Shown here in pieces: positions 27,369-38,667 of a DNA stretch of 46,794 nucleotides. The DNA comes from Nitrospirota bacterium (lineage in GTDB: Bacteria > Nitrospirota > Thermodesulfovibrionia > Thermodesulfovibrionales > Dissulfurispiraceae). Position 1 is the first letter of the stretch; the number at the start of each line of letters is the position of its first letter. Below the pieces are notes generated by a model. The model had not been told where the DNA came from and did no database searches. It saw only the letters and a program-made list of their open reading frames with translations. The DNA lies in NCBI GenBank assembly GCA_004321915.1, contig SCQE01000048.1, forward strand, positions 1 through 46,794, written 5' to 3'. Both the position numbers and the translations under genes were made by a program.

Positions 27369-28169
27369 ATGAAAAAAACAAATGTGACATTGAAAGATGT
27401 AAGCGCGGTATATTCGGGGCCTGAGGGCGTTCTTTGGGAGCTTATCATGGGAGAGCAGATCCATGTGGGCGGGTTTGGGAGCTCTATGGCTTTGGCGCAG
27501 AAGGCCGATATCAAAGAGGGGCAGAAGGTGCTCGATCTCTGCAGCGCGCTCGGCGCGGGCCTCCGCTTCCTCGTCAAGAACTTCAAAGTTCAGGGCTTCG
27601 GTCTTGACGGCACCGAACATATGGTGAATGAGGCGGTAAGAAGAACTGAACAGGACGGTCTCAAGGGCTCGATAGAGTATAAGCTCGGCGATGTGACGGC
27701 CATCCCGTGGGCCGAAAACAATTTCGACGTTGTATGGGGCGAGGACGCATGGTGTTATGTCGTGGACAAAGACAAATTAATATCCGAAGCGGCGCGGGTC
27801 TTGAAAAAAGGCGGGACAATCTCTTTTACCGATTGGGTCGAAGGGCCGAAAGGTCTGTCCGATGAGGATGCAGAGCGGATCAATACCTTCATGAAATTCC
27901 CTTACATGGAGAGTCAAAAGGGATATGAGGCGCTGCTCAAAAAGCACGGCCTGACCCTGAAAGTATCTGACGACCTCACCTCCGAGTTCGCGGACTACAT
28001 ACAACTTTACCTAGATATGGTATCGAAGCAGCTTAGCTTTGACGCGCTTCGCATCATCGGCTGGGACATGAATATGATGCAGGCCATCGGCGGTGAAATG
28101 GCGTTTATGCTCCAGAAGGCGCGCGAAGGCGGTTTCGGCAGAACGAGAATAGTTGGAGTAAAGGAGTAG
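27369..28169 (+). CDS. SAM-dependent methyltransferase (class I)
   Basis: A 266-aa Rossmann methyltransferase: motif I VLDLCSALGAGLRFL (slightly unusual: C and A in place of G), acidic residue in GFGLDGTEHMV, IEYKLGDVTAIPW, NNFDVVWGEDAWCYV, and RVLKKGGTISFTDW. Resembles small-molecule N-methyltransferases of the sarcosine/dimethylglycine type. RBS AAGGAG. It starts a tight operon with three 2-hydroxyacyl-CoA dehydratase-like genes and their activator (3-bp gap to the next), so its substrate may be linked to that reductase system. Substrate unknown. Confidence 0.85.
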   Translation: MKKTNVTLKDVSAVYSGPEGVLWELIMGEQIHVGGFGSSMALAQKADIKEGQKVLDLCSALGAGLRFLVKNFKVQGFGLDGTEHMVNEAVRRTEQDGLKGSIEYKLGDVTAIPWAENNFDVVWGEDAWCYVVDKDKLISEAARVLKKGGTISFTDWVEGPKGLSDEDAERINTFMKFPYMESQKGYEALLKKHGLTLKVSDDLTSEFADYIQLYLDMVSKQLSFDALRIIGWDMNMMQAIGGEMAFMLQKAREGGFGRTRIVGVKE

Positions 28170-28172
28170 TTT

Positions 28173-29261
28173 TTGAGAATAAGGGACGCCTGCGCCGAAC
28201 GGCTTGCCTCGGAACGCGCCGCACTCACAAAATTCAGGGCTTCGGGCGGAAAGGTAGCGGGTTATACCTGCAACGCCTTTCCAGCAGCCGTATTGGCGGG
28301 GTCCGGACTTTGGCCTGTGCGCGTACTCTGCGGAACGTCGTCTGATTCGGAAAGCGCAGGCGAGAAAATAGTAAGGGCGGATGTCTGTCCGCTGGTCAAG
28401 AGCCTGCTTGGAAATGTTGCGGAGGGAAAAAGCCTGCACGCTGAAATAGACCTATGGATAGGCCTCTACACCTGTGACCAGATGCGGCGCGGAATGAACT
28501 GCCTTTCTGAGCAGTTAGGAAAAGAAGTCCATCCGGTGCAGCTTCCGGCAACCCGCACAGATGATGTGGCAGGGTATTATGCCGTGCAGGTTAAGCGTCT
28601 TGTATCAGACATCGAGACTCGCCATAATCTCCCTTTTGATGAGAAGCAGTCGCTCTATTGGACGAATGAGTATAACGATGCAGCAAAAGTGCTTTCTCAG
28701 GCCGCGCGTGCCGGATTCATATCGCCCTTGGATATTCACGCAATGTTCCATCTTCTTTTCAACTCAAGACCTTTCGGCCTTGCGCGTTTTTTCGAAAAGA
28801 TCATTATATCGTCGGACGCATTCAGACCCGAAAAAACCGTGGTATTGACCGGCAGTCCGCTTACGCTTGAAGATACTGTCCTGCTTGAAGAGCTTGAAAA
28901 CAGAGGGTTCGGTGTAATTCCCCTCAACTGTACAGGACTGAATGCGGTGGAGTATGAGAAACACGTGGAGATCGGCGATAATACCATCGAATCGCTTGCG
29001 CTCGCTGCTTTTCATAGGCCGCCCTGCTCGCGGGCAAGACCGAACACGGTTGTATATGAACGTATCAAGCAGACGATTACGGATACAGGGGCAAAGGGAC
29101 TTATAGTCAAATGCATGAAGTTCTGCGACCAGTGGTACACTGAGCGTGAGAGGATGCGGCGGACATTCGATATTCCGGTGCTGGTATTTGATTCCGATTA
29201 TGCGGCAGGCGGCAGAGAGCGCCTGCTGAGCAGAATAGACGCATTTCTGGAGATGCTTTGA
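28173..29261 (+). CDS. 2-hydroxyacyl-CoA dehydratase / benzoyl-CoA reductase family protein (HgdB-like), paralog 1
   Basis: A 362-aa protein with a TTG start after GGAG overlapping the upstream stop. Cys positions fit Fe-S binding in the family: GYTCNAFP, ADVCPLVKS, LYTCDQMRRG, RPPCSRARPN, and VKCMKFCDQWYTERERM. The family binds [4Fe-4S] or double-cubane clusters reduced to very low potential by an HgdC/YjiL-type ATPase, which is encoded four genes down. Whether this subunit is catalytic or structural is not clear. Confidence 0.82.
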   Translation: MRIRDACAERLASERAALTKFRASGGKVAGYTCNAFPAAVLAGSGLWPVRVLCGTSSDSESAGEKIVRADVCPLVKSLLGNVAEGKSLHAEIDLWIGLYTCDQMRRGMNCLSEQLGKEVHPVQLPATRTDDVAGYYAVQVKRLVSDIETRHNLPFDEKQSLYWTNEYNDAAKVLSQAARAGFISPLDIHAMFHLLFNSRPFGLARFFEKIIISSDAFRPEKTVVLTGSPLTLEDTVLLEELENRGFGVIPLNCTGLNAVEYEKHVEIGDNTIESLALAAFHRPPCSRARPNTVVYERIKQTITDTGAKGLIVKCMKFCDQWYTERERMRRTFDIPVLVFDSDYAAGGRERLLSRIDAFLEML

Positions 29262-30685
29262 AAGACGATGTACGCAGATTAACGGTAATGGAATGGGAAG
29301 AGAGGATGCCGCTCGTCCCCGAGGAATACCGTGCTCAATGCACATTCCTCCGTTCACTCGTGCCGGGCGGGGTGCGCTATCTCTTCAGCCCTTACGAATA
29401 TTCGTGCCGCGGCGATGTATTGCTCAGGCGGCTCAAGTTCGATTCTTCGCTTGCTGCACTCCGGCTGTGGGCCTTTCTCTTCAGCGAAAAAGACAGACTG
29501 TTCCTCGCAAAAGAAAAAGGCTGGAAGGTTTTTGCGGCCATGAAAGACCTCGGCCCTGTGCCGGTACTGGCTTACGCAGTGCCTGAAGCGCTCACCTTTT
29601 ATGCGGATGAATTATGGTGGGCGCCCTGTTTTGCAGAGGAGTCTCACCTCCTCGACGAAGCCGCTAAATTGGGCGCGGGCGAAGAGCTCTGTTTTGTGCG
29701 GGCCGCGCTCGGCGCAATGGTAACGCTCGATTATTTTCCGCCGCCCGATTTGTGCATAGCCGGTGTTGGAGCTTGCTGCGACGATTTTTCGGCGGTGATG
29801 CAGCTGATAGAATCCATCGGCTATAAGACCCACTGGTGGGAAATGGCCGCGCGTTTTGAACAGTCGTCGCCGCTTATCACCGAGAGGTTTCTCCGCACCA
29901 CCTTCGGCAACTCTCCGTATCAGGAATCGGCCCGCGCCTTTGTATCCGGGCAGTTGAGGGGTGTTCTCAAAGCCCTCGAAGAGGCGAGCGGCAAAAAGAT
30001 TACGGATGAAATGCTCGATAAGAGCCGCACGCTATTCAACAATATCAGGCAGCGCGTAGCTCTCTTGAGAGATTTGGTTTATGGCGTAAAGAGGCCGCCC
30101 CTGCCGGGGCTTGAGATGATGCTCGCCGAATTTATAGCCATTCATGCCTGCTCCGAACCTGACGAATGCATTCCTGTGCTGGACGACCTTATACGCACTG
30201 TTCAGCAGAGACTGTCCGAAGGGGCATCTCCGCTTTCACCAAATCCCATACGCGTATTCTGGGCCACTCCGCCTACAGACGCAGCGCTTATCACGCTGCT
30301 CGAAGACCTAGGCGGCTGCATAGCCGGTACAGAATATATGATAAGCCATGCCTTCTATCAACTTGCAACAGACAAGCCTGTCGTAGATGCGGTCGCTGAA
30401 AACTGTATGGACGACCCCATGATAGGCTCGACAGCCTTCAGGGCAAGGCGCATCATCGAAGGCGCGAAAAAATACGGGGCAGAGGGCGTGATAATATCCG
30501 GAATATCCGGCGCGAGCCACTGTCCGTTTGACGAGGGCGCGATAGCCGAAGCAGTTCAAAAGGAGCTGAACATACCGGTGCTCTCTTTCGATGTGCCTTA
30601 TTCTCCCGGAAGATTAAATGAACAGGTGGTGAACAGAATGCAGGGTTTTATGGAACTTCTGAGCAGACGCAGGCCCTCGACCTGA
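29258..30685 (+). CDS. 2-hydroxyacyl-CoA dehydratase family protein, divergent paralog 2
   Basis: A 475-aa protein with a TTG start overlapping the previous stop (TTGA). It keeps the family layout in diverged form: LFSPYEYSCRGD, ELCFVRAALGAMVTLDYF, CIAGVGACCDDFSAVM, YKTHWWEM, and a C-terminal half with GVIISGISGASHCPFDEG and VLSFDVPYSPGRLNEQVVNRMQGFMELL. Longer than paralogs 1 and 3. The frame stays open past its TGA (30683-30685) into the next gene. Confidence 0.75.
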   Translation: MKDDVRRLTVMEWEERMPLVPEEYRAQCTFLRSLVPGGVRYLFSPYEYSCRGDVLLRRLKFDSSLAALRLWAFLFSEKDRLFLAKEKGWKVFAAMKDLGPVPVLAYAVPEALTFYADELWWAPCFAEESHLLDEAAKLGAGEELCFVRAALGAMVTLDYFPPPDLCIAGVGACCDDFSAVMQLIESIGYKTHWWEMAARFEQSSPLITERFLRTTFGNSPYQESARAFVSGQLRGVLKALEEASGKKITDEMLDKSRTLFNNIRQRVALLRDLVYGVKRPPLPGLEMMLAEFIAIHACSEPDECIPVLDDLIRTVQQRLSEGASPLSPNPIRVFWATPPTDAALITLLEDLGGCIAGTEYMISHAFYQLATDKPVVDAVAENCMDDPMIGSTAFRARRIIEGAKKYGAEGVIISGISGASHCPFDEGAIAEAVQKELNIPVLSFDVPYSPGRLNEQVVNRMQGFMELLSRRRPST

Positions 30686-30760: not shown

Positions 30761-31858
30761 ATGTTCCTAGAAGTGGATTTGGTCAGGGACGCCAAGAGGC
30801 ACGGCAAAGGTGTCGTGGGGATATATTGCGAATTCACGCCGCGCGAACTCATACTCGCCGCAAACGCTCTGCCTGTCTGCCTTTGCGGCGCCAATAACCG
30901 CACCATCCCGCCTGCTGAGACGGTGTTGCCTTCAAACCTCTGCCCGCTCATCAAGTCGTCCTTCGGTTATATCCTGACAAACCGTTGCCCGTTCTATATG
31001 GTTCTCGATTTAGTGGTTGCCGAGACGACCTGCGACGGGAAAAAGAAGATGTACGAGTTGATAGCAGAGAAAAAGCCTGTGCATGTCCTCGAACTGACTC
31101 AGAAAGTGGATGAGCAGGAGGCGTTCGACCACTGGCTTGCGGAAGTCCGGAAACTCAGGAAGAGACTGGAACAGACATTCAACCGCACTATAACGGATGA
31201 TGATCTGCGGGAAGCTATCCGCATGATGAATAAAGAACGCGGCCTGCTGAAAGAGGCGTTCGAATTAGGTAAAGAAGAACCGGCAGTACTGACCGGAAAA
31301 GAACTCTCAGATATCCGCTATCGCGTGGCAGGAGTGGCCGGTCATCTCAAGATGCTCGATGAATTTATATCTGAAGCAAAGCGTAGAAAAGAAACAGGAC
31401 GCTTCGCTGCAAAGGCAGGCGCTCCTAGGATAATGCTTACAGGCTGTCCTACGGCGCAAGGCACGACAAAGCTTATAGAGGTCATAGAGGAGTGCGGGGC
31501 TGTAGTCGTGGCACAAGAAACCTGTTCCGGATTAAAACCTCTCGACCTGATGGTGGATGAAGATGGAGACCCGCTTGAAGCGATCGCGCGGAAATATTTC
31601 AAACTACCCTGTTCCTGCATGACACCGAATACAGGACGCACCGAACTTATCGAACGGCTTGCGCGGGAATTCAGGGTTAACGCGGTAATAGACCTCGTAT
31701 GGCAGGCATGCCACACCTACAATGTCGAGTCATATCTCATAGACAAGTTTGTTCGCGAGAAGTTAGGCATTCCCTACATGAAGATAGAGACCGACTATTC
31801 GGACTCCGACCGCGAGCGGCTTAAGGTGAGGGTGCAGACCCTTGTGGAGATGCTGTGA
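30761..31858 (+). CDS. Double-cubane cluster protein, YjiM-like 2-hydroxyacyl-CoA dehydratase paralog 3
   Basis: A 365-aa protein close to the YjiM type: GVVGIYCEFTPRELILAANA, LPVCLCG, NLCPLIKSSFGY, TTCDGKKKMYELIA, LTGCPTAQGT, LPCSCMTPN, and QACHTYNVESYLID. YjiM-type proteins bind an unusual [8Fe-9S] double-cubane cluster and are reduced by a partner ATPase, encoded next. ATG 30761 has AAGGA 4 nt before it. The chain seems ~20 residues short at the N-terminus compared with E. coli YjiM as I recall it; the missing part could be encoded upstream in the same frame, which has no usual start codon. Confidence 0.85.
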   Translation: MFLEVDLVRDAKRHGKGVVGIYCEFTPRELILAANALPVCLCGANNRTIPPAETVLPSNLCPLIKSSFGYILTNRCPFYMVLDLVVAETTCDGKKKMYELIAEKKPVHVLELTQKVDEQEAFDHWLAEVRKLRKRLEQTFNRTITDDDLREAIRMMNKERGLLKEAFELGKEEPAVLTGKELSDIRYRVAGVAGHLKMLDEFISEAKRRKETGRFAAKAGAPRIMLTGCPTAQGTTKLIEVIEECGAVVVAQETCSGLKPLDLMVDEDGDPLEAIARKYFKLPCSCMTPNTGRTELIERLAREFRVNAVIDLVWQACHTYNVESYLIDKFVREKLGIPYMKIETDYSDSDRERLKVRVQTLVEML

Positions 31859-32628
31859 TGCTGACCTGCGGCGTTGACATAGGCTCCCGCTCCATAGAGA
31901 TTGTTTTATTCGACGGGGCTGCGGTTGTCGAAACGACCGTGGCCAATTCCGGCTCATCTCCTGTGGAGAATGCGAAAAAAGCGTTCAGCGACACGCTGTC
32001 CTCTGCCGGGGTAAGAAGAGAAGAGGTCGCAAAGGTGGTTGCGACAGGTTACGGAAGAAATTATTTTAAAGAGGCGGATACGGTTTCGTCCGAGATCCTC
32101 TGCCATGCAAAGGGCGTATCGTATCTTTTTCCGACCGCATGCACGGTCATAGATATCGGAGGTCAGGACTCCAAGATGATAAGCCTCGATACAAACGGCA
32201 GGGTCTCGAACTTTGTCATGAATGACCGCTGCGCGGCAGGCACAGGCAAATTCATAGAGATGGTCTCTCTGATGCTCGATGTGCCCCTCGACAGTATGGG
32301 AGTTGTTACGGAAGTCTCGAACGAGGTATGCGAGATATCCTCCATGTGCGCGGTCTTTGCGGAATCCGAAATCATCGGCCTTACACAGAGCGGGACTGCC
32401 GTGGATGTGGTGCTGCGCGGCGTTTTCAGGTCGGTTGCAAAAAGAACTCTGGCCATGTCGGGAAAGGTTGGACTCACAGCTGATGTGGTCTTTACCGGAG
32501 GGGTGGCGAGAAATGCCGGAGTGGTGCGCGCCATAGAACACGAGACTGGGCTAAAGCTGCTCGTGCCGCCCGAACCTCAGATAACCGGAGCGCTTGGAGC
32601 CGCAATTATCGCTGCGTCAAAGGCATGA
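31858..32628 (+). CDS. ATP-dependent activator/reductase (HgdC/YjiL, BadF/BcrA family)
   Basis: A 256-aa ASKHA ATPase: CGVDIGSRSIEIVLFD (phosphate 1), VIDIGGQDSKMI (phosphate 2), FTGGVARNAGVV (adenosine), and GALGAAIIA. The dimer-bridging [4Fe-4S] cluster Cys lie in NDRCAAGTGKF and SSMCAVFAESE. It uses ATP to inject a low-potential electron into the partner protein(s) encoded just upstream. Start taken at ATG in the overlap TGATG; a GTG one codon earlier is possible. Only one activator serves three dehydratase-like paralogs. Confidence 0.92.
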   Translation: MLTCGVDIGSRSIEIVLFDGAAVVETTVANSGSSPVENAKKAFSDTLSSAGVRREEVAKVVATGYGRNYFKEADTVSSEILCHAKGVSYLFPTACTVIDIGGQDSKMISLDTNGRVSNFVMNDRCAAGTGKFIEMVSLMLDVPLDSMGVVTEVSNEVCEISSMCAVFAESEIIGLTQSGTAVDVVLRGVFRSVAKRTLAMSGKVGLTADVVFTGGVARNAGVVRAIEHETGLKLLVPPEPQITGALGAAIIAASKA

Positions 32629-32645
32629 GCACATTTAAAACATCA

Positions 32646-32713
32646 CCCTCCCTTTGATCCTTCCACTCAAGGGAGGGAAAATAAAAATATCCCTCTCCCC
32701 CGGAGGGAGAGGG
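32646..32713. repeat. Double-hairpin intergenic repeat
   Basis: Two stems: CCCTCCCTT/AAGGGAGGG (32646-32677) and CCCTCTCCC/GGGAGAGGG (32691-32713), followed by a GGGTGAGGGGG run. This kind of C/G-rich double hairpin occurs as a dispersed repeat in many genomes; the insert in the kinase gene (2349-2395) has a related composition. It may end transcription of the reductase operon, although no U-tract follows. Confidence 0.65.
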
Positions 32714-32783
32714 GACGGGTGAGGGGGAACAGCCGTAGAATTTCTTGATGCAAAATAAATTATTATGATAGGGTAACTTTAGA

Positions 32784-33179
32784 ATGGAACAAAAATTGAA
32801 ACTTTCAGGAAAGCTGACAACACTCAAGGTACAAAAGGAGACCCCGGAGACGAACGGCCCCTTCTGTCCGATAAAACCGCCGCAGGAAGGCAAAGGAGGC
32901 GTTGCCTTGAAAGGGGGAGCAGTAAGCTCGGCCTTCATGAGCGCCTTTCTCTGAAACATCAATATCGTTCTGGCCGGTCTGGGGCTGGGAAGCGTGGCAG
33001 CAGGCGAGTGGCTCGCAAGGTACCGTTTTTTCTTTATGCCGCTCACCGCAACATTGCTGGCATTCTCCTTTTATAAAACATACCGCGGGAACTGCGTTGC
33101 GCCGAGGAGAAACAAGATAATATTGTGGGCGACGGCAACGGTAAGCATAGGGCTGACACTATATTCTCTCTTTAAATGA
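32784..33179 (+). CDS. Candidate selenoprotein: MerT-like small membrane protein with Sec at in-frame TGA (residue 57)
   Basis: One 131-residue frame read through TGA 32952-32954. The part after TGA aligns from memory with mercuric transporter MerT: TM1 (SSAFMSAFL-U-NINIVLAGLGLG), TM2 (FFFMPLTATLLAFSFYKTYR), loop Cys (YRGNCVAPRRNK), and TM3 (IILWATATVSIGLTLYSLF). Sec57 falls at or next to the Cys-Cys pair of MerT TM1. Starting 21 nt after the TGA, the loop GGUCU (32976-32980) tops a stem formed by UUCUGGCC and a G-rich arm, the bacterial SECIS pattern (GGUCU is also the loop in E. coli formate dehydrogenase genes). AGGG lies 10 nt before the ATG. Next genes make c-type cytochromes, so a redox or thiol role beside metal transport is possible. 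Alternative: two broken pieces of a pseudogene. Confidence 0.65.
32955..32995 (+). promoter_or_regulatory. Candidate bacterial SECIS element
   Basis: Lies right after TGA 32952-32954. The stem uses UUCUGGCC (32968-32975) on the 5' side and the GG(GG)CUGGGAA arm (32981-32992) on the 3' side, with G-U pairs and a small bulge. The apical loop is GGUCU at 32976-32980. The spacing from TGA to loop (21 nt) is in the range known for SelB-binding elements. Confidence 0.6.
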
Positions 33180-33183
33180 CATC

Positions 33184-33948
33184 ATGATCTTTTGTGGAGT
33201 AGGAGAAGAAGGCCGTTCGCTGTTTTATGTCATGCTGCTGCTAATCCCTGCGGTGCTTTACGCTATGGGGCTAAGCGAAGGCAGGAAGGGCGGATATTTT
33301 TTTTCAGCTGCCGTAATTTTTCATATAACAACCCTGATACTCAGGGGCCTTGAACTCGGCGCTCTGCCGTTCACAGAGAAGCATGATAACATCTCGCTCA
33401 TGGCCTTGTTCCTCGCGCTTTTTTATTATTATTTCAACAAAGGAAAACGTATCAAGCACCTCGACATCATCTCGCTTCCAATAGTCTCCGTCTTGCTCTG
33501 CATTGCGGCCTCTTACGAGCCGCTCAACACCATCCCTCCGTTCCAGAAATCGCCGTGGTTCTATCTGCATTCGTTTTTTTACTCTCTCGGTTATGCTCTT
33601 TTCGGGACCGCGGCCTGCATAGGCGTGTCGTATCTGCTGACAGGCGATGCGGAACATGAAGGGGACCAATATAAAGGGGCTGTCATCGGATGGATTTTAT
33701 TTTCGGTCTCTCTGGTGACCGGCGGAATCTGGTTTTTTACGGCATACGGCACTTACTGGCTCTGGACGCCGAAAGAGCTCTGGATATCCGCCACATGGTT
33801 TTATTACGGTCTATACCTGCATCTGCGCCTTGTAAAAGGTTTTAAGGGGAGACCTGCAGCCGCAATCGGGATTGCAGGTTTCTGCATCGCGCTATTCACA
33901 TACTTCGGACTCGGCACGGTCATACCATGCCCGCCGACACAATTTTAA
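33184..33948 (+). CDS. CcsA/ResC-like cytochrome c biogenesis membrane protein
   Basis: A 254-aa multi-pass protein (about 7-8 TM segments). The periplasmic heme-handling motif near the C-terminus reads YGTYWLWTPKELW, equivalent to the WWD motif of CcsA (WGxxWxWDxxE) but with Thr in place of Asp. Putative axial His residues are conserved: FHITTL near residue 40, KHDNISLMALF, SPWFYLHSFFYSLGYALF, and YLHLRLVKG. It should transport or attach heme with the ResB-like protein encoded next (system II). Starts 4 bp after the selenoprotein stop codon, which suggests one operon. Confidence 0.82.
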   Translation: MIFCGVGEEGRSLFYVMLLLIPAVLYAMGLSEGRKGGYFFSAAVIFHITTLILRGLELGALPFTEKHDNISLMALFLALFYYYFNKGKRIKHLDIISLPIVSVLLCIAASYEPLNTIPPFQKSPWFYLHSFFYSLGYALFGTAACIGVSYLLTGDAEHEGDQYKGAVIGWILFSVSLVTGGIWFFTAYGTYWLWTPKELWISATWFYYGLYLHLRLVKGFKGRPAAAIGIAGFCIALFTYFGLGTVIPCPPTQF

Positions 33949-34697
33949 AACCCATGAAGATCCTGAAAACGATAAACAACTTCTTCCTTTCGCTCAAAAT
34001 AATGTCTGGCTTCTTTTTTGTCTTTATTTTAGTGGCCTGCGCGGGCTCGCTGTTTCTGACACAAAATCTGGCCTTTTTTTCGGGCATAGACGAAACGCCG
34101 CTTTTCAGATGGCTTTCCGAAAATAAAAACCTGAAGCTGATATGGTGGATATATGCTTTAATCGTCCTGTTAGGCATTATTGCGACCGGAACAATATTCT
34201 GCACTATAGAGGGTCTCTTAAAAAGGGTCAATAGAAAACTGCTTGTTGCGAAGCTGTCTCCTCAGATCATGCATATAGGAGCGCTCCTGATGCTGTTCGG
34301 GAACCTGCTTACCGCATCTGCGGGCTTCAAGGCCGACATACTATTAAAAGCAGGCGAAGTCAGGACAGTTCTCGAAGATAAAGCGGTACGCCTCGAAAGC
34401 GTAAGCGTGGAAACGGACAAAAACGGCTACCCTACGAATTGGGAGGCGGGACTGCGTTGGATAGAAAACGGTTCTGAATCCGTTGAACATAAAATAAGCC
34501 CGACCCATCCTCTTTATTTCGGGCAATACGGGATTTACTCACAAGCGGTAAGCGCCGGAGAAAAAACAGCATTGATACGGGTCTGCAAAGACCCCGGCGC
34601 GATCTGGGCACTCGCAGGCGGCTTGCTGCTGATAGCAGGGGGTCTCGGCTTTTTCTACTCCCACTTTTATGTCAAGCCGTTATCCGGCCGGACATAG
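33927..34697 (+). CDS. ResB/Ccs1-like cytochrome c biogenesis protein
   Basis: A 256-aa protein. It has TM segments at ~27-48, ~75-95 and ~112-130, then a periplasmic domain (~135-220; ILLKAGEVRTVLEDKAVRLES, PTHPLYFGQYGIYSQ) and a last TM (~228-246). This is a compact version of ResB, which is usually longer. It overlaps ccsA by 22 bp if it starts at 33927; an ATG at 33954, just after the ccsA stop codon, fits the family N-terminus (MKILKTINNFF) equally well and neither has a good RBS. Works with CcsA to ligate heme to apocytochromes. Confidence 0.75.
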   Translation: MPADTILKPMKILKTINNFFLSLKIMSGFFFVFILVACAGSLFLTQNLAFFSGIDETPLFRWLSENKNLKLIWWIYALIVLLGIIATGTIFCTIEGLLKRVNRKLLVAKLSPQIMHIGALLMLFGNLLTASAGFKADILLKAGEVRTVLEDKAVRLESVSVETDKNGYPTNWEAGLRWIENGSESVEHKISPTHPLYFGQYGIYSQAVSAGEKTALIRVCKDPGAIWALAGGLLLIAGGLGFFYSHFYVKPLSGRT

Positions 34698-34922: not shown

Positions 34923-35021
34923 ATGAACAAAACAGGATATTTCAAAAAACTCGCCTATCCGAATATTTACCGGACCACGCCGGCCGAATGGACAGAGGCC
35001 GGAAGGGCGCTCGAAAAATAG
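34923..35021 (+). CDS. Possible 32-aa leader ORF before the YedF-like gene
   Basis: ATG 34923 follows a strong purine-rich RBS (GGGGGGGAAC). It encodes NKTGYFKKLAYPNIYRTTPA then EWTEAGRALEK and ends in TAG 9 bp before the next start. I do not recognise it. It could be a real small protein coupled to the next gene, or a remnant of an N-terminal domain. Confidence 0.4.
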   Translation: MNKTGYFKKLAYPNIYRTTPAEWTEAGRALEK

Positions 35022-35029
35022 AAGGCCTT

Positions 35030-35383
35030 ATGTCGGATACAAAAGCAAAGGATATGCTTTTAGTGTTTGCAACGGATTCGATAGGCAAGGAGGAAGATAT
35101 AGGGAAAGTCCTTGTGAAAGGTTTTTTTGAAACAATAAAGACCACAAAGGAGATACCGCACACTATTTTCTTCATGAATGCCGGGGTGAACCTCACTACC
35201 CGCAATATAGAGATCGTCTCTCTCCTGAAAGAACTTCAGGCCATGGGTGTCGAAATATTTTCTTGCGGCACATGTCTCAAATATTACGGCCTTGAAGCTG
35301 AGCTTAAAGTCGGCTATCGCGGAACAACCAACCATATTGTCGAGGGCATGAAAGATTTTGCCAAAACCGTATGGATAGGGTAA
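35030..35383 (+). CDS. YedF-type DsrE-fold protein (selenium-metabolism-associated), C-terminal domain only
   Basis: A 117-aa protein, starting at ATG 35030 with AAGG just before. It matches the C-terminal half of YedF: LLVFATDSIGKEEDIGKVLVKGFF, TIFFMNAGVNLTT, SLLKELQAMGVEIFSCGTCLKYYGL. The Cys pair CGTC is in place. Full-length YedF has a TusA/SirA-like N-terminal domain with CPxP, absent here. YedF-type proteins occur in selenium-using genomes by family knowledge, which agrees with the selenoprotein call at 32784. Exact biochemical role (Se or S relay) is unproven. Confidence 0.75.
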   Translation: MSDTKAKDMLLVFATDSIGKEEDIGKVLVKGFFETIKTTKEIPHTIFFMNAGVNLTTRNIEIVSLLKELQAMGVEIFSCGTCLKYYGLEAELKVGYRGTTNHIVEGMKDFAKTVWIG

Positions 35384-36277: not shown

Positions 36278-37057
36278 ATGATAAAAGATTCGATATCGAG
36301 AAGGGAAATTCTGACAACTGCAGGACTTATAGCCGGAGGCGCGGCGCTTTCACAGTTCGCCGGGCTTGTCGCCAAGGCCGAGGCAAAGGGCGGGCCGACG
36401 GAGAAATGGCCGTGGCCGTATGAGAAACTGGACCCCGAGAAAACGGCTGAACTGGCATACAACGAATGGTACAGGGTGTTCTGCGGCAACGCCGTTATCA
36501 GCAGCATCTTCAGCCAGCTCAGGGACAAAGTAGGCGAGCCCTACAAGTCTTTCCCCGTAGATGCCTTTGTTTTCCTTGAAGGCGGCATGGTCGGCTGGGG
36601 GACCGTCTGCGGCTCGAATGCAGGGGCGAACATCGTTGCGAATGTGATCATAGGGCCGAGGATTGCCGGACCGGAATGTGAAAACGGCGCGCAGATCGGA
36701 AACGATATGCTGCAGTGGTATTCCGAGACCGCCCTGCCCACTTTTACGCCGAAAGAACCGAAAGTCAAGGCCGCCATAGCGCAGACCGTAAGCAATTCCC
36801 CGCTCTGTCACGTATCGGTCGGCAAGTGGATGAAGAAGAGCGGCTACCCTATCGCAAGCGCCGAGAGGAAGGACCGCTGCGCGCGTGTTACGGCAAGCGT
36901 CGCCTACCATCTTGTTCAGGACTTGAATGCTTGGAAAGACGGAACATACAAACCTAAGGCAACTTGGAAAGCGGTTTCCAATGTCGGGATTACGGCCCAG
37001 CAAAACTGCAACGAATGCCACGGCTCGAACATTCCTACTCCGCCGAAGAAGAAATAG
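36278..37057 (+). CDS. Split-Soret cytochrome c / C_GCAxxG_C_C family protein, Tat-exported
   Basis: A 259-aa protein. The N-terminal twin-arginine signal is ISRREILTTAG followed by a hydrophobic run to ~32. The C_GCAxxG_C_C layout appears as FCGNAVISSIF, GWGTVCGSNAGAN, PECENG, and SPLCHVSVGKWM. A heme c motif CNECH sits near the C-terminus. This is the composition of split-Soret cytochromes known from sulfate reducers, and such proteins are periplasmic redox proteins of unclear partner. RBS AGGAGGG. Heme attachment would use the CcsA/ResB genes 2-3 kb upstream. Confidence 0.83.
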   Translation: MIKDSISRREILTTAGLIAGGAALSQFAGLVAKAEAKGGPTEKWPWPYEKLDPEKTAELAYNEWYRVFCGNAVISSIFSQLRDKVGEPYKSFPVDAFVFLEGGMVGWGTVCGSNAGANIVANVIIGPRIAGPECENGAQIGNDMLQWYSETALPTFTPKEPKVKAAIAQTVSNSPLCHVSVGKWMKKSGYPIASAERKDRCARVTASVAYHLVQDLNAWKDGTYKPKATWKAVSNVGITAQQNCNECHGSNIPTPPKKK

Positions 37058-37198: not shown

Positions 37199-37645
37199 AT
37201 GAGAAAAAGATGGTTGTCTGTTTTTATTGTATTGCTGGCATTAATGTTTTCCTGCTACGCTTTTGCCGAAAAAGCCGGGGGCAAGGCAAAGGGTAAAAAG
37301 CGCGGAGCTTCAAGCAACATACTCTATGTTTGCAACTGCGGACCTGAATGCAAATGCAACACGGTCTCGACAAAACCGGGCAAATGCTCCTGCGGAGAGG
37401 CGCTTGTGCCTATGCATATTCTGAAGATCGAAAAAGACGAGGCGCTGCTCTGCACCTGCGGTAAGGGATGCTCCTGCAAATTGGACCCTAACGATCCGTC
37501 CAAATGCGGCTGCGGCAAGGATGTCAAACGTGTAAGCATTAAAGGGCTTTACGCATGCGCATGCGGAGAAGGCTGCACCTGCAACAGGGTCTCCGATAAG
37601 CCCGGAAAATGCAGATGCGGTAACGAGTTAAAGAAGGTTGAGTAA
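37199..37645 (+). CDS. Secreted Cys-rich triple-repeat protein, probable metal binder
   Basis: A 148-aa protein with a signal peptide (1-~23, ..CYAFA) and a Lys/Gly linker. Three tandem ~35-residue repeats follow, each with six Cys as CxCGxxCxC-(8)-CxCG: YVCNCGPECKCNTVS..CSCG, LLCTCGKGCSCKLD..CGCG, and YACACGEGCTCNRVS..CRCG. A total of 18 Cys in periplasmic repeats points to metal (Cu, Hg, Zn) or thiol chemistry, like a periplasmic metallothionein; this is inference. Strong RBS AAGGAGG. With a MerT-like selenoprotein and selenium regulator in the same region, metal or selenium handling is plausible. Confidence 0.7.
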   Translation: MRKRWLSVFIVLLALMFSCYAFAEKAGGKAKGKKRGASSNILYVCNCGPECKCNTVSTKPGKCSCGEALVPMHILKIEKDEALLCTCGKGCSCKLDPNDPSKCGCGKDVKRVSIKGLYACACGEGCTCNRVSDKPGKCRCGNELKKVE

Positions 37646-37758: not shown

Positions 37759-38667
37759 GTGGACATTCATCACCTGAGGATATTCGTCTCAGTCTTTAAG
37801 AATAGAAGCTTTTCGAGGGCCGCCGAAGCGCTCCTGCTGACACAACCCACGGTCAGCGACCATATAAGGGCGCTTGAGGAAGAGCTCGGGTGCAGATTAT
37901 TTGACAGGCTGACCAGAAAGATCATCCCGACCGCGGAAGCGGAGCTTCTGTATAACCAAGCTGTCGGAATAATAGAAAAAACGGACGGGATAAAAGGCGT
38001 AATCGGACAGCTCAAAAAAGAGATCGCCGGAACGCTCATAATAGGGGCAAGCACGATCCCCGGAACATATATACTGCCCGGGATCATCTCGTCATTCCGG
38101 GAATCGAACCCCTCGGTTTCTTTCGATGTAAGGGTTTCCGATACTAAAGGGATAATAGATATGATAGCCAAGCACGAACTCCTTATCGGGATCGTCGGCT
38201 CGAAGCTGGCCAATACTCAGATACAATACTCCAATTTCCTTCAGGACGAGATGATCGTGATAGCCGCCCCCTCGTTCGCTGCGCGAGGAACTGTATCTCC
38301 GATCAAGCTTCTGGAGTTTCCATTCGTCATGCGGGAAGAAGGCTCAGGCACTAGGCAGGAGTTCGAGAAGATATTCGATGGCAGGAACATAGACATGCAT
38401 AACTTAAGGACGGCGGCGGTCTTCGGCTCGACCGACGCTGTTAAACAGGCTGTCATGGCGGGCATGGGGGTTTCGATAGTCTCGCGCCGCGCTGTCGAAA
38501 CCGAACTGAAATTCAAGGCGGTCAAAGAGATCAAACTCAAAGATGTCCGGATGAAAAGGAATTTCCATATAGCCGTCCACAAAAACCGCGCGCTTTCCCA
38601 TCCCTACCGGATCTTTCTCGAATATCTGGTCGCCCAAAAACAGCAACAATCCTTTTCAAGCAGGTAA
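37759..38667 (+). CDS. LysR-family regulator, resembling the selenium-metabolism-associated group
   Basis: A 302-aa protein with a GTG start after AAGGA (37748-37752). The N-terminal HTH (MDIHHLRIFVSVFKNRSFSR, AAEALLLTQPTVSDHIRALE) is followed by the co-inducer-binding domain (~90-295). From memory, the closest named group is the selenium-metabolism-associated LysR regulators found next to selenium genes; I could not check this. It lies alone after the YedF/cytochrome genes on the same strand. The inducer is unknown; selenite or a sulfur/selenium metabolite is a guess. Confidence 0.8.
   Translation: MDIHHLRIFVSVFKNRSFSRAAEALLLTQPTVSDHIRALEEELGCRLFDRLTRKIIPTAEAELLYNQAVGIIEKTDGIKGVIGQLKKEIAGTLIIGASTIPGTYILPGIISSFRESNPSVSFDVRVSDTKGIIDMIAKHELLIGIVGSKLANTQIQYSNFLQDEMIVIAAPSFAARGTVSPIKLLEFPFVMREEGSGTRQEFEKIFDGRNIDMHNLRTAAVFGSTDAVKQAVMAGMGVSIVSRRAVETELKFKAVKEIKLKDVRMKRNFHIAVHKNRALSHPYRIFLEYLVAQKQQQSFSSR

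Follow-up and report, generated by a model that had tools for sequence, protein, structure and literature searches.

The window analysed here, a stretch of 46,794 nucleotides that makes up a Nitrospirota contig (SCQE01000048.1), contains a frame for a small membrane protein with a TGA in its middle, and the question is whether that TGA ends a peptide or is read as selenocysteine (Sec), and what a protein with Sec at that position would do. The product around codon 57 would read ...GGAVSSAFMSAFL-U-NINIVLAGLGLGSV..., and we call the gene Sec-MerT. Our overall reading, held at a probability of roughly 0.8, is that the gene specifies a MerT-superfamily selenoprotein, that its UGA would be decoded by means of SelB and a downstream hairpin, and that the protein may serve to transfer a soft metal or metalloid. 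The features under discussion are collected in Table 1. G-numbers (such as G058, G105 and G177) denote the genomes compared, and L-numbers (such as L065 and L066) denote loci.

Table 1. Sec-MerT, its neighbours and the loci compared with them; positions without a prefix are those of the window.
Feature	Position	Strand	Remarks
SAM-dependent methyltransferase, ArsM/DVU_1556-like	27369..28169	+	NCBIfam, below cut-offs; also in G105 and G202 clusters
Double-cubane reductase-like paralogue 1	28173..29261	+	129 bits, cut-off 350
Double-cubane reductase-like paralogue 2	29258..30685	+	56 bits, cut-off 350
Double-cubane-cluster-containing anaerobic reductase	30761..31858	+	458 bits, above the cut-off of 350
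BadF/BcrA-type activase ATPase (acyl-CoA dehydratase activase)	31855..32628	+	over cut-off
Sec-MerT gene	32784..33179	+	131 residues, MerT family, one UGA; translated with TGA as U; start ATG 32784, closing stop TGA 33177-33179
UGA codon 57, predicted Sec	32952..32954	+	UGA in 12/12 of the clade; Cys in distant MerT
SECIS-like hairpin	32968..32990	+	apical loop from 32976; consensus fold of 12 sequences
CcsA/CcsB-like cytochrome c assembly protein	33184..33948	+	separated from the Sec-MerT stop by 4 nt
ResB-like protein	33927..34697	+	
Selenium-associated YedF, C-terminal DsrE part only	34988..35383	+	TIGR03527 129 bits, cut-off 110; start codon uncertain
C_GCAxxG_C_C family protein	36278-37057		
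CxC-repeat protein	37199-37645		
Selenium metabolism-associated LysR regulator	37759..38667	+	NF040786 300 bits, over cut-off 250
YedF copies compared	34988-35383; L066:1229-1567; L067:7765-8406		
Second SelB-like matches	G105:C185:66-965; G202:C16:16815-17708; G097:C24:38801-39679		
UGA-containing neighbours of Sec-MerT	L071:895-1476, L071:1751-3250; L072:3-410, L072:632-2197		

A tblastn-type search of 199 related genomes returned 10 further Sec-MerT genes, and a profile built from the 11 sequences then available added one more in G202. The homologues of the window gene are therefore spread over 11 other genomes, one of them from another class of Nitrospirota, and the 12 carriers represent 12 genera. 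The relatives are 36-75% identical to the window protein. Each of the 12 frames holds exactly one TGA, always in the same column, which bears out the proposal of a preliminary description of this DNA that a single frame continues through 32952-32954. That description had allowed that re-sequencing might change the TGA, but the same codon is found again in 12 independent assemblies, and therefore it is no sequencing error. Amino-acid changes are far fewer than synonymous ones both before and after the TGA. Between the window and G177, dN/dS is 0.08 upstream of the TGA and 0.10 downstream. Between the window and G105, pS is 0.58 and pN 0.07 upstream, and pS is 0.85 and pN 0.11 downstream; pS is 0.58-0.89 in the comparisons with G105 and G111, close to saturation of the synonymous sites, and pN stays at 0.07-0.17 on either side. 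The low dN/dS and pN on the two sides indicate that the frame has been maintained as protein both before and after the TGA.

The protein matches one family across the TGA. The NCBIfam model merT_RC607 (NF033560) aligns with residues 46-130 (E 8e-10), covering positions 9-94 of its 97, at 39 bits where its cut-off is 130. This disposes of the concern, raised in the preliminary description, that the two halves might come from unrelated families. Both merT_RC607 and the NCBIfam model MerTP match all 12 members at E<1, and Pfam MerT (PF02411) matches the window protein at E 0.076, below threshold. A structure model, poor in quality with a pLDDT of only 60, places helices at 44-79 (kinked at 58), 81-101 and 108-130, and the hydropathy is in rough agreement with these three. 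A PDB profile search with Sec-MerT gave nothing significant. We hold with high confidence that Sec-MerT is a membrane protein of the MerT superfamily.

In the distant stop-free MerT-like proteins matched by the profile, the column of Sec57 holds a Cys, which is the second residue of the Cys-Cys pair of the first transmembrane helix (TM1). The TGA had been said to fall at or next to that pair, and the presence of either Cys or TGA at position 57 across species had been named as support for Sec; both hold, with TGA in 12 of 12 in the clade and Cys in distant MerT. Inside the UGA clade there is no Sec-free homologue, and the comparison with Cys rests on those distant proteins. A tree of 38 sequences has a branch, supported at 100/99, that sets the UGA forms apart from the rest; the search behind it may have missed Cys forms nearer to the UGA clade. 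The remaining cysteines are less constant. The first Cys of the TM1 pair is kept in six members, which read FCU, and is Leu or Ile in the other six (FLU, IU, ILU); the window has Leu-Sec at the pair position, not Cys-Cys. The downstream part had been described as MerT-like with a loop Cys, and it is indeed MerT-like, as the profile alignment through the TGA shows, but the loop Cys (C103) is present in just 4 of 12 and absent in 8. None of the 12 has a second Cys pair in the cytoplasmic loop, which contains one Cys at most. The four closest homologues share the loop Cys and an N-terminal GP(F/V/M)C, a combination not seen in the FCU subgroup. Since the first TM1 Cys is lost in half of the members and the loop Cys in two thirds, one cannot be sure of metal transfer in the manner of MerT.

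In bacterial SECIS elements, a G is found among the first two loop bases, about 21 nt from the UGA. Downstream of the Sec-MerT UGA, a predicted hairpin has its apical loop 21 nt away. The preliminary description had a hairpin with a GGUCU loop beginning at that distance; the hairpin and the position of the loop hold up, but the stem starts earlier, at 13 nt. A single hairpin model fits all 12 homologues, with up to eight pairs, a single bulged base and a loop of six bases that opens with (A/G)GU; the window loop begins GGUCU, and in the homologues the (A/G)GU is followed by variable bases. The codons in this segment are frozen. All 12 sequences write Leu63 as CTG and Ala64 as GCC, followed in each by GGT or AGT. 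At fully conserved residues, a pair of sequences shares its codon 77% of the time within the hairpin vs. 27% outside. Compared with synonymous shuffles, 9 of the 12 hairpins fall in the most stable 10% (combined p 2.7e-7, for sequences that are related and not independent). The window hairpin taken alone has no extra stability over dinucleotide shuffles (z about 0); therefore, a single sequence is insufficient to show the hairpin, and it is the conservation that does so. The stem is nearly invariant and for that reason shows little covariation. A search of Rfam gave no match to SECIS or to anything else. Judged by its loop and spacing, the hairpin is a candidate SECIS-like element.

The source genome has what is needed to decode such a codon. 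Its selA, selB and selD score 616, 357 and 362 bits, each above its cut-off, and it has a tRNA-Sec (selC) with anticodon TCA at 71 bits; the selD gene carries an in-frame TGA of its own. Thus, the absence of these genes, which the preliminary description had named as evidence against a selenoprotein, does not apply. The genes are necessary but do not discriminate, since Sec use is widespread in the group: selA is present in 175 of 199 relatives and its phylogenetic profile is uninformative. Three Sec-MerT carriers, G086, G097 and G105, have no selA in their draft genomes. Of these, G086 and G105 have selB, and G097 gives a partial selB match only, with neither selA nor a full selB seen in an assembly that is 96% complete. 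Second, shorter SelB-like matches of about 180-195 bits, confined to the N-terminal half, occur in frames of 380-409 residues.

The competing reading is that the TGA is a true stop, leaving a 56-codon peptide or a decayed gene, with the downstream part translated from the GTG at 32994. A mechanical list of open reading frames does give a separate 61-residue frame from that GTG. This reading does not explain why one and the same TGA is kept by all 12 genomes with strong purifying selection on either side, why the MerT profile runs across it, or why the codons following it are frozen as a hairpin would require; nor would a decayed gene retain one TGA without any other stop. We regard it as very improbable. 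The read-through is beyond chance on this comparative sequence evidence, and the UGA at 32952 is almost certainly decoded as Sec. Genome-wide reassignment of UGA is ruled out by the TGA that closes Sec-MerT itself and by the full set of Sec genes. A minus-strand open frame of 146 residues (32606-33046) overlaps Sec-MerT; it is probably spurious, and gene finders could call it instead.

What lies around the gene in the window is a set of genes on one strand, in the order methyltransferase, three double-cubane-reductase-like genes, activase, Sec-MerT, CcsA-like, ResB-like, YedF and, later, LysR. The two double-cubane-like genes within 28173-30685 score far below the cut-off and may be divergent partner subunits. 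The YedF-type gene and the selenium-type LysR had been noted before, and both exceed curated cut-offs. The YedF copies in the window and in G105 cover positions 79-194 and 87-194 of TIGR03527, without the TusA domain; in G050, a full-length YedF with the TusA domain adjoins Sec-MerT. The stretch from YedF to LysR also encodes a member of the C_GCAxxG_C_C family and a small protein in which three CxC-rich repeats occur.

Elsewhere, Sec-MerT is found in two kinds of setting. The double-cubane/activase cluster is beside it in 4 of 12 genomes, namely the window, G177, G105 and G202, where the clusters of the last two are read partly from sequence resemblance; the methyltransferase of the cluster is recognised in G105 and, from its sequence, also in G202. 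CcsA and ResB directly follow Sec-MerT in only two, the window and G105. Members of the FCU subgroup have as neighbours a TsoA-like gene (G135, G058) and MbdU-like genes (G135, G058, G097, G083) with UGA codons of their own. The setting is not that of mercury resistance. The source genome has no MerA over the cut-off, and the scanned window neighbours of Sec-MerT match no mer family. MerA over the cut-off occurs in two carriers, G135 and G058, and in both it adjoins a stop-free MerT match on a different contig from Sec-MerT. With MerA beside a stop-free MerT and Sec-MerT beside TsoA/MbdU genes on separate contigs, we take it that the two types of MerT are used apart. Sec-MerT is thus linked to the double-cubane/activase/ArsM-like cluster or to TsoA/MbdU genes and not to mer operons. 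The arrangement of double-cubane-like genes with a methyltransferase and an activase is seen again in other genomes (L066 and L070).

In MerT, the first-helix pair consists of two cysteines, which pick up periplasmic Hg(II). On the comparative evidence, SelB with charged tRNA-Sec would decode the UGA as Sec57, the hairpin helping, and the product would be a three-helix inner-membrane protein with Sec57 in helix 1 at the position of the second MerT Cys. The selenolate, which as a ligand for soft metals is stronger than a thiolate and more readily deprotonated, would bind a soft metal or metalloid and hand it inward across the membrane, as the MerT cysteines do with Hg(II). Likely partners on the cytoplasmic side are those encoded in the window: the ATP-driven activase, the double-cubane reductase, which would supply electrons of very low potential, and the ArsM-like methyltransferase. 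The imported cargo would then be reduced or alkylated by the linked reductase and methyltransferase. Such neighbours point to anaerobic reduction or alkylation and not to resistance of the MerA type. We consider the odds of the transfer role itself to be about even, and that Sec-MerT supplies the double-cubane/methyltransferase system is a tentative suggestion. With the neighbouring Cys lost, the site departs from the classical bidentate type; we speculate that in the four closest members the N-terminal GPxC may complete it. The most specific version is a conjecture that we think more likely wrong than right: Sec-MerT would form the entrance, at the membrane, to an undescribed anaerobic pathway that depends on Sec. 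There the double-cubane reductase with its activase and the ArsM-like methyltransferase would reduce or alkylate a soft metal or metalloid that Sec57 carries without an adjacent partner Cys; mercury, arsenic or selenium itself could be the cargo.

The main rival to the transfer role is a redox role, in which a MerT-derived Sec protein uses Sec57, the GPxC and the loop Cys to pass electrons or thiols across the membrane, for instance to CcsA/ResB or the double-cubane system. Its attraction is that CcsA and ResB directly follow in the window and G105, that the first TM1 Cys is absent in the window's group, which removes the bidentate metal site of MerT, and that the extra cysteines are there in the four closest homologues. 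But these cysteines are not seen in the FCU subgroup, G177 and G202 keep the double-cubane cluster without CcsA/ResB beside Sec-MerT, and membrane electron carriers of the DsbD/CcdA type have conserved Cys pairs, which Sec-MerT has not. The earlier suggestion of a thiol redox supply for CcsA/ResB is not supported, since the double-cubane cluster is next to Sec-MerT in twice as many genomes as CcsA/ResB. We judge a redox role unlikely, if less so than the remaining candidate, a standard mercury importer of a mer operon in which Sec merely replaces Cys. Family membership, the position of the Sec and the two genomes with MerA would fit such an importer, but that MerA adjoins the other MerT in both genomes, while Sec-MerT sits with TsoA and MbdU, and neither a MerA over the cut-off in the source genome nor another mer family among the scanned window genes accompanies it; we find it improbable. 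Transfer of a soft metal or metalloid is the role we prefer.

Sec-containing MerT proteins as such are already known. A putative mercuric transport selenoprotein of PF02411 (ABB16073.1, motif C/SxxU) is listed in PMC9312934 and PMC13188914, and two Sec-containing MerT proteins were counted in ocean samples (PMC2398784). ABB16073.1, like the present family, belongs among the MerT-superfamily membrane proteins for which comparison predicts a single UGA-encoded Sec; by the listed motif, which is what was compared, it differs in having C/SxxU where the present family has AxxU or LxxU/IxxU (FLU, ILU, FCU). The MerT/CopZ fusion-like selenoprotein NF045683 also has a MerT domain with Sec, and 6 of the 12 members match it weakly (best E 4e-7). 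However, the best member reaches 30 bits where the cut-off is 375, and the window protein has no CopZ/MerP domain and no match. The NF045683 search gave many matches with internal TGA, TAG or TAA and was not used as evidence; several of them span a MerT-like and a MerP/CopZ-like part and may be two adjacent genes. The best curated match, the Bacillus RC607-type MerT (NF033560), is a small three-helix membrane protein, as the window protein is predicted to be, but the window protein has Sec for Cys, no first Cys and no mer operon. No relative was found in the named genomes with patterns that wrote the Sec codon as Cys and were blind to UGA forms, nor in the viral contigs and plasmids scanned.

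What is new is a stand-alone Sec-MerT subfamily that lies under every curated cut-off tried, although it may be included in Haft and Gwadz 2023 or Haft and Tolstoy 2025. The link of Sec-MerT to the double-cubane cluster is absent from the literature examined. The gene would encode a membrane selenoprotein that is clearly stable in evolution yet is cut short or missed by gene callers, and Sec in a MerT-type helix is now tied to a double-cubane reductase system. To our knowledge, the natural substrates of such systems are largely unknown. The 12-member UGA clade with its frozen hairpin is a clean set for work on SECIS elements and on transport by Sec.

TsoA and MbdU (NF045695, NF045648) are credited to Haft and Tolstoy 2025 by PMC13188914. 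TsoY was rejected as an identity for Sec-MerT, having no match in the 12 genomes, where the control gave no match either. Neighbourhoods with TsoA/MbdU occur in the FCU subgroup, whereas the window's subgroup sits in the double-cubane/activase/methyltransferase cluster. Among the UGA genes beside Sec-MerT, the TsoA-like gene reads RUIKEC and the MbdU-like gene has at least two UGA codons, in CUPS and TUPSG, making three adjacent UGA genes. G111, also a carrier, has a UGA-containing TsoA-like gene reading HUIKEC (L065:8501-9022) about 3.4 kb from its Sec-MerT.
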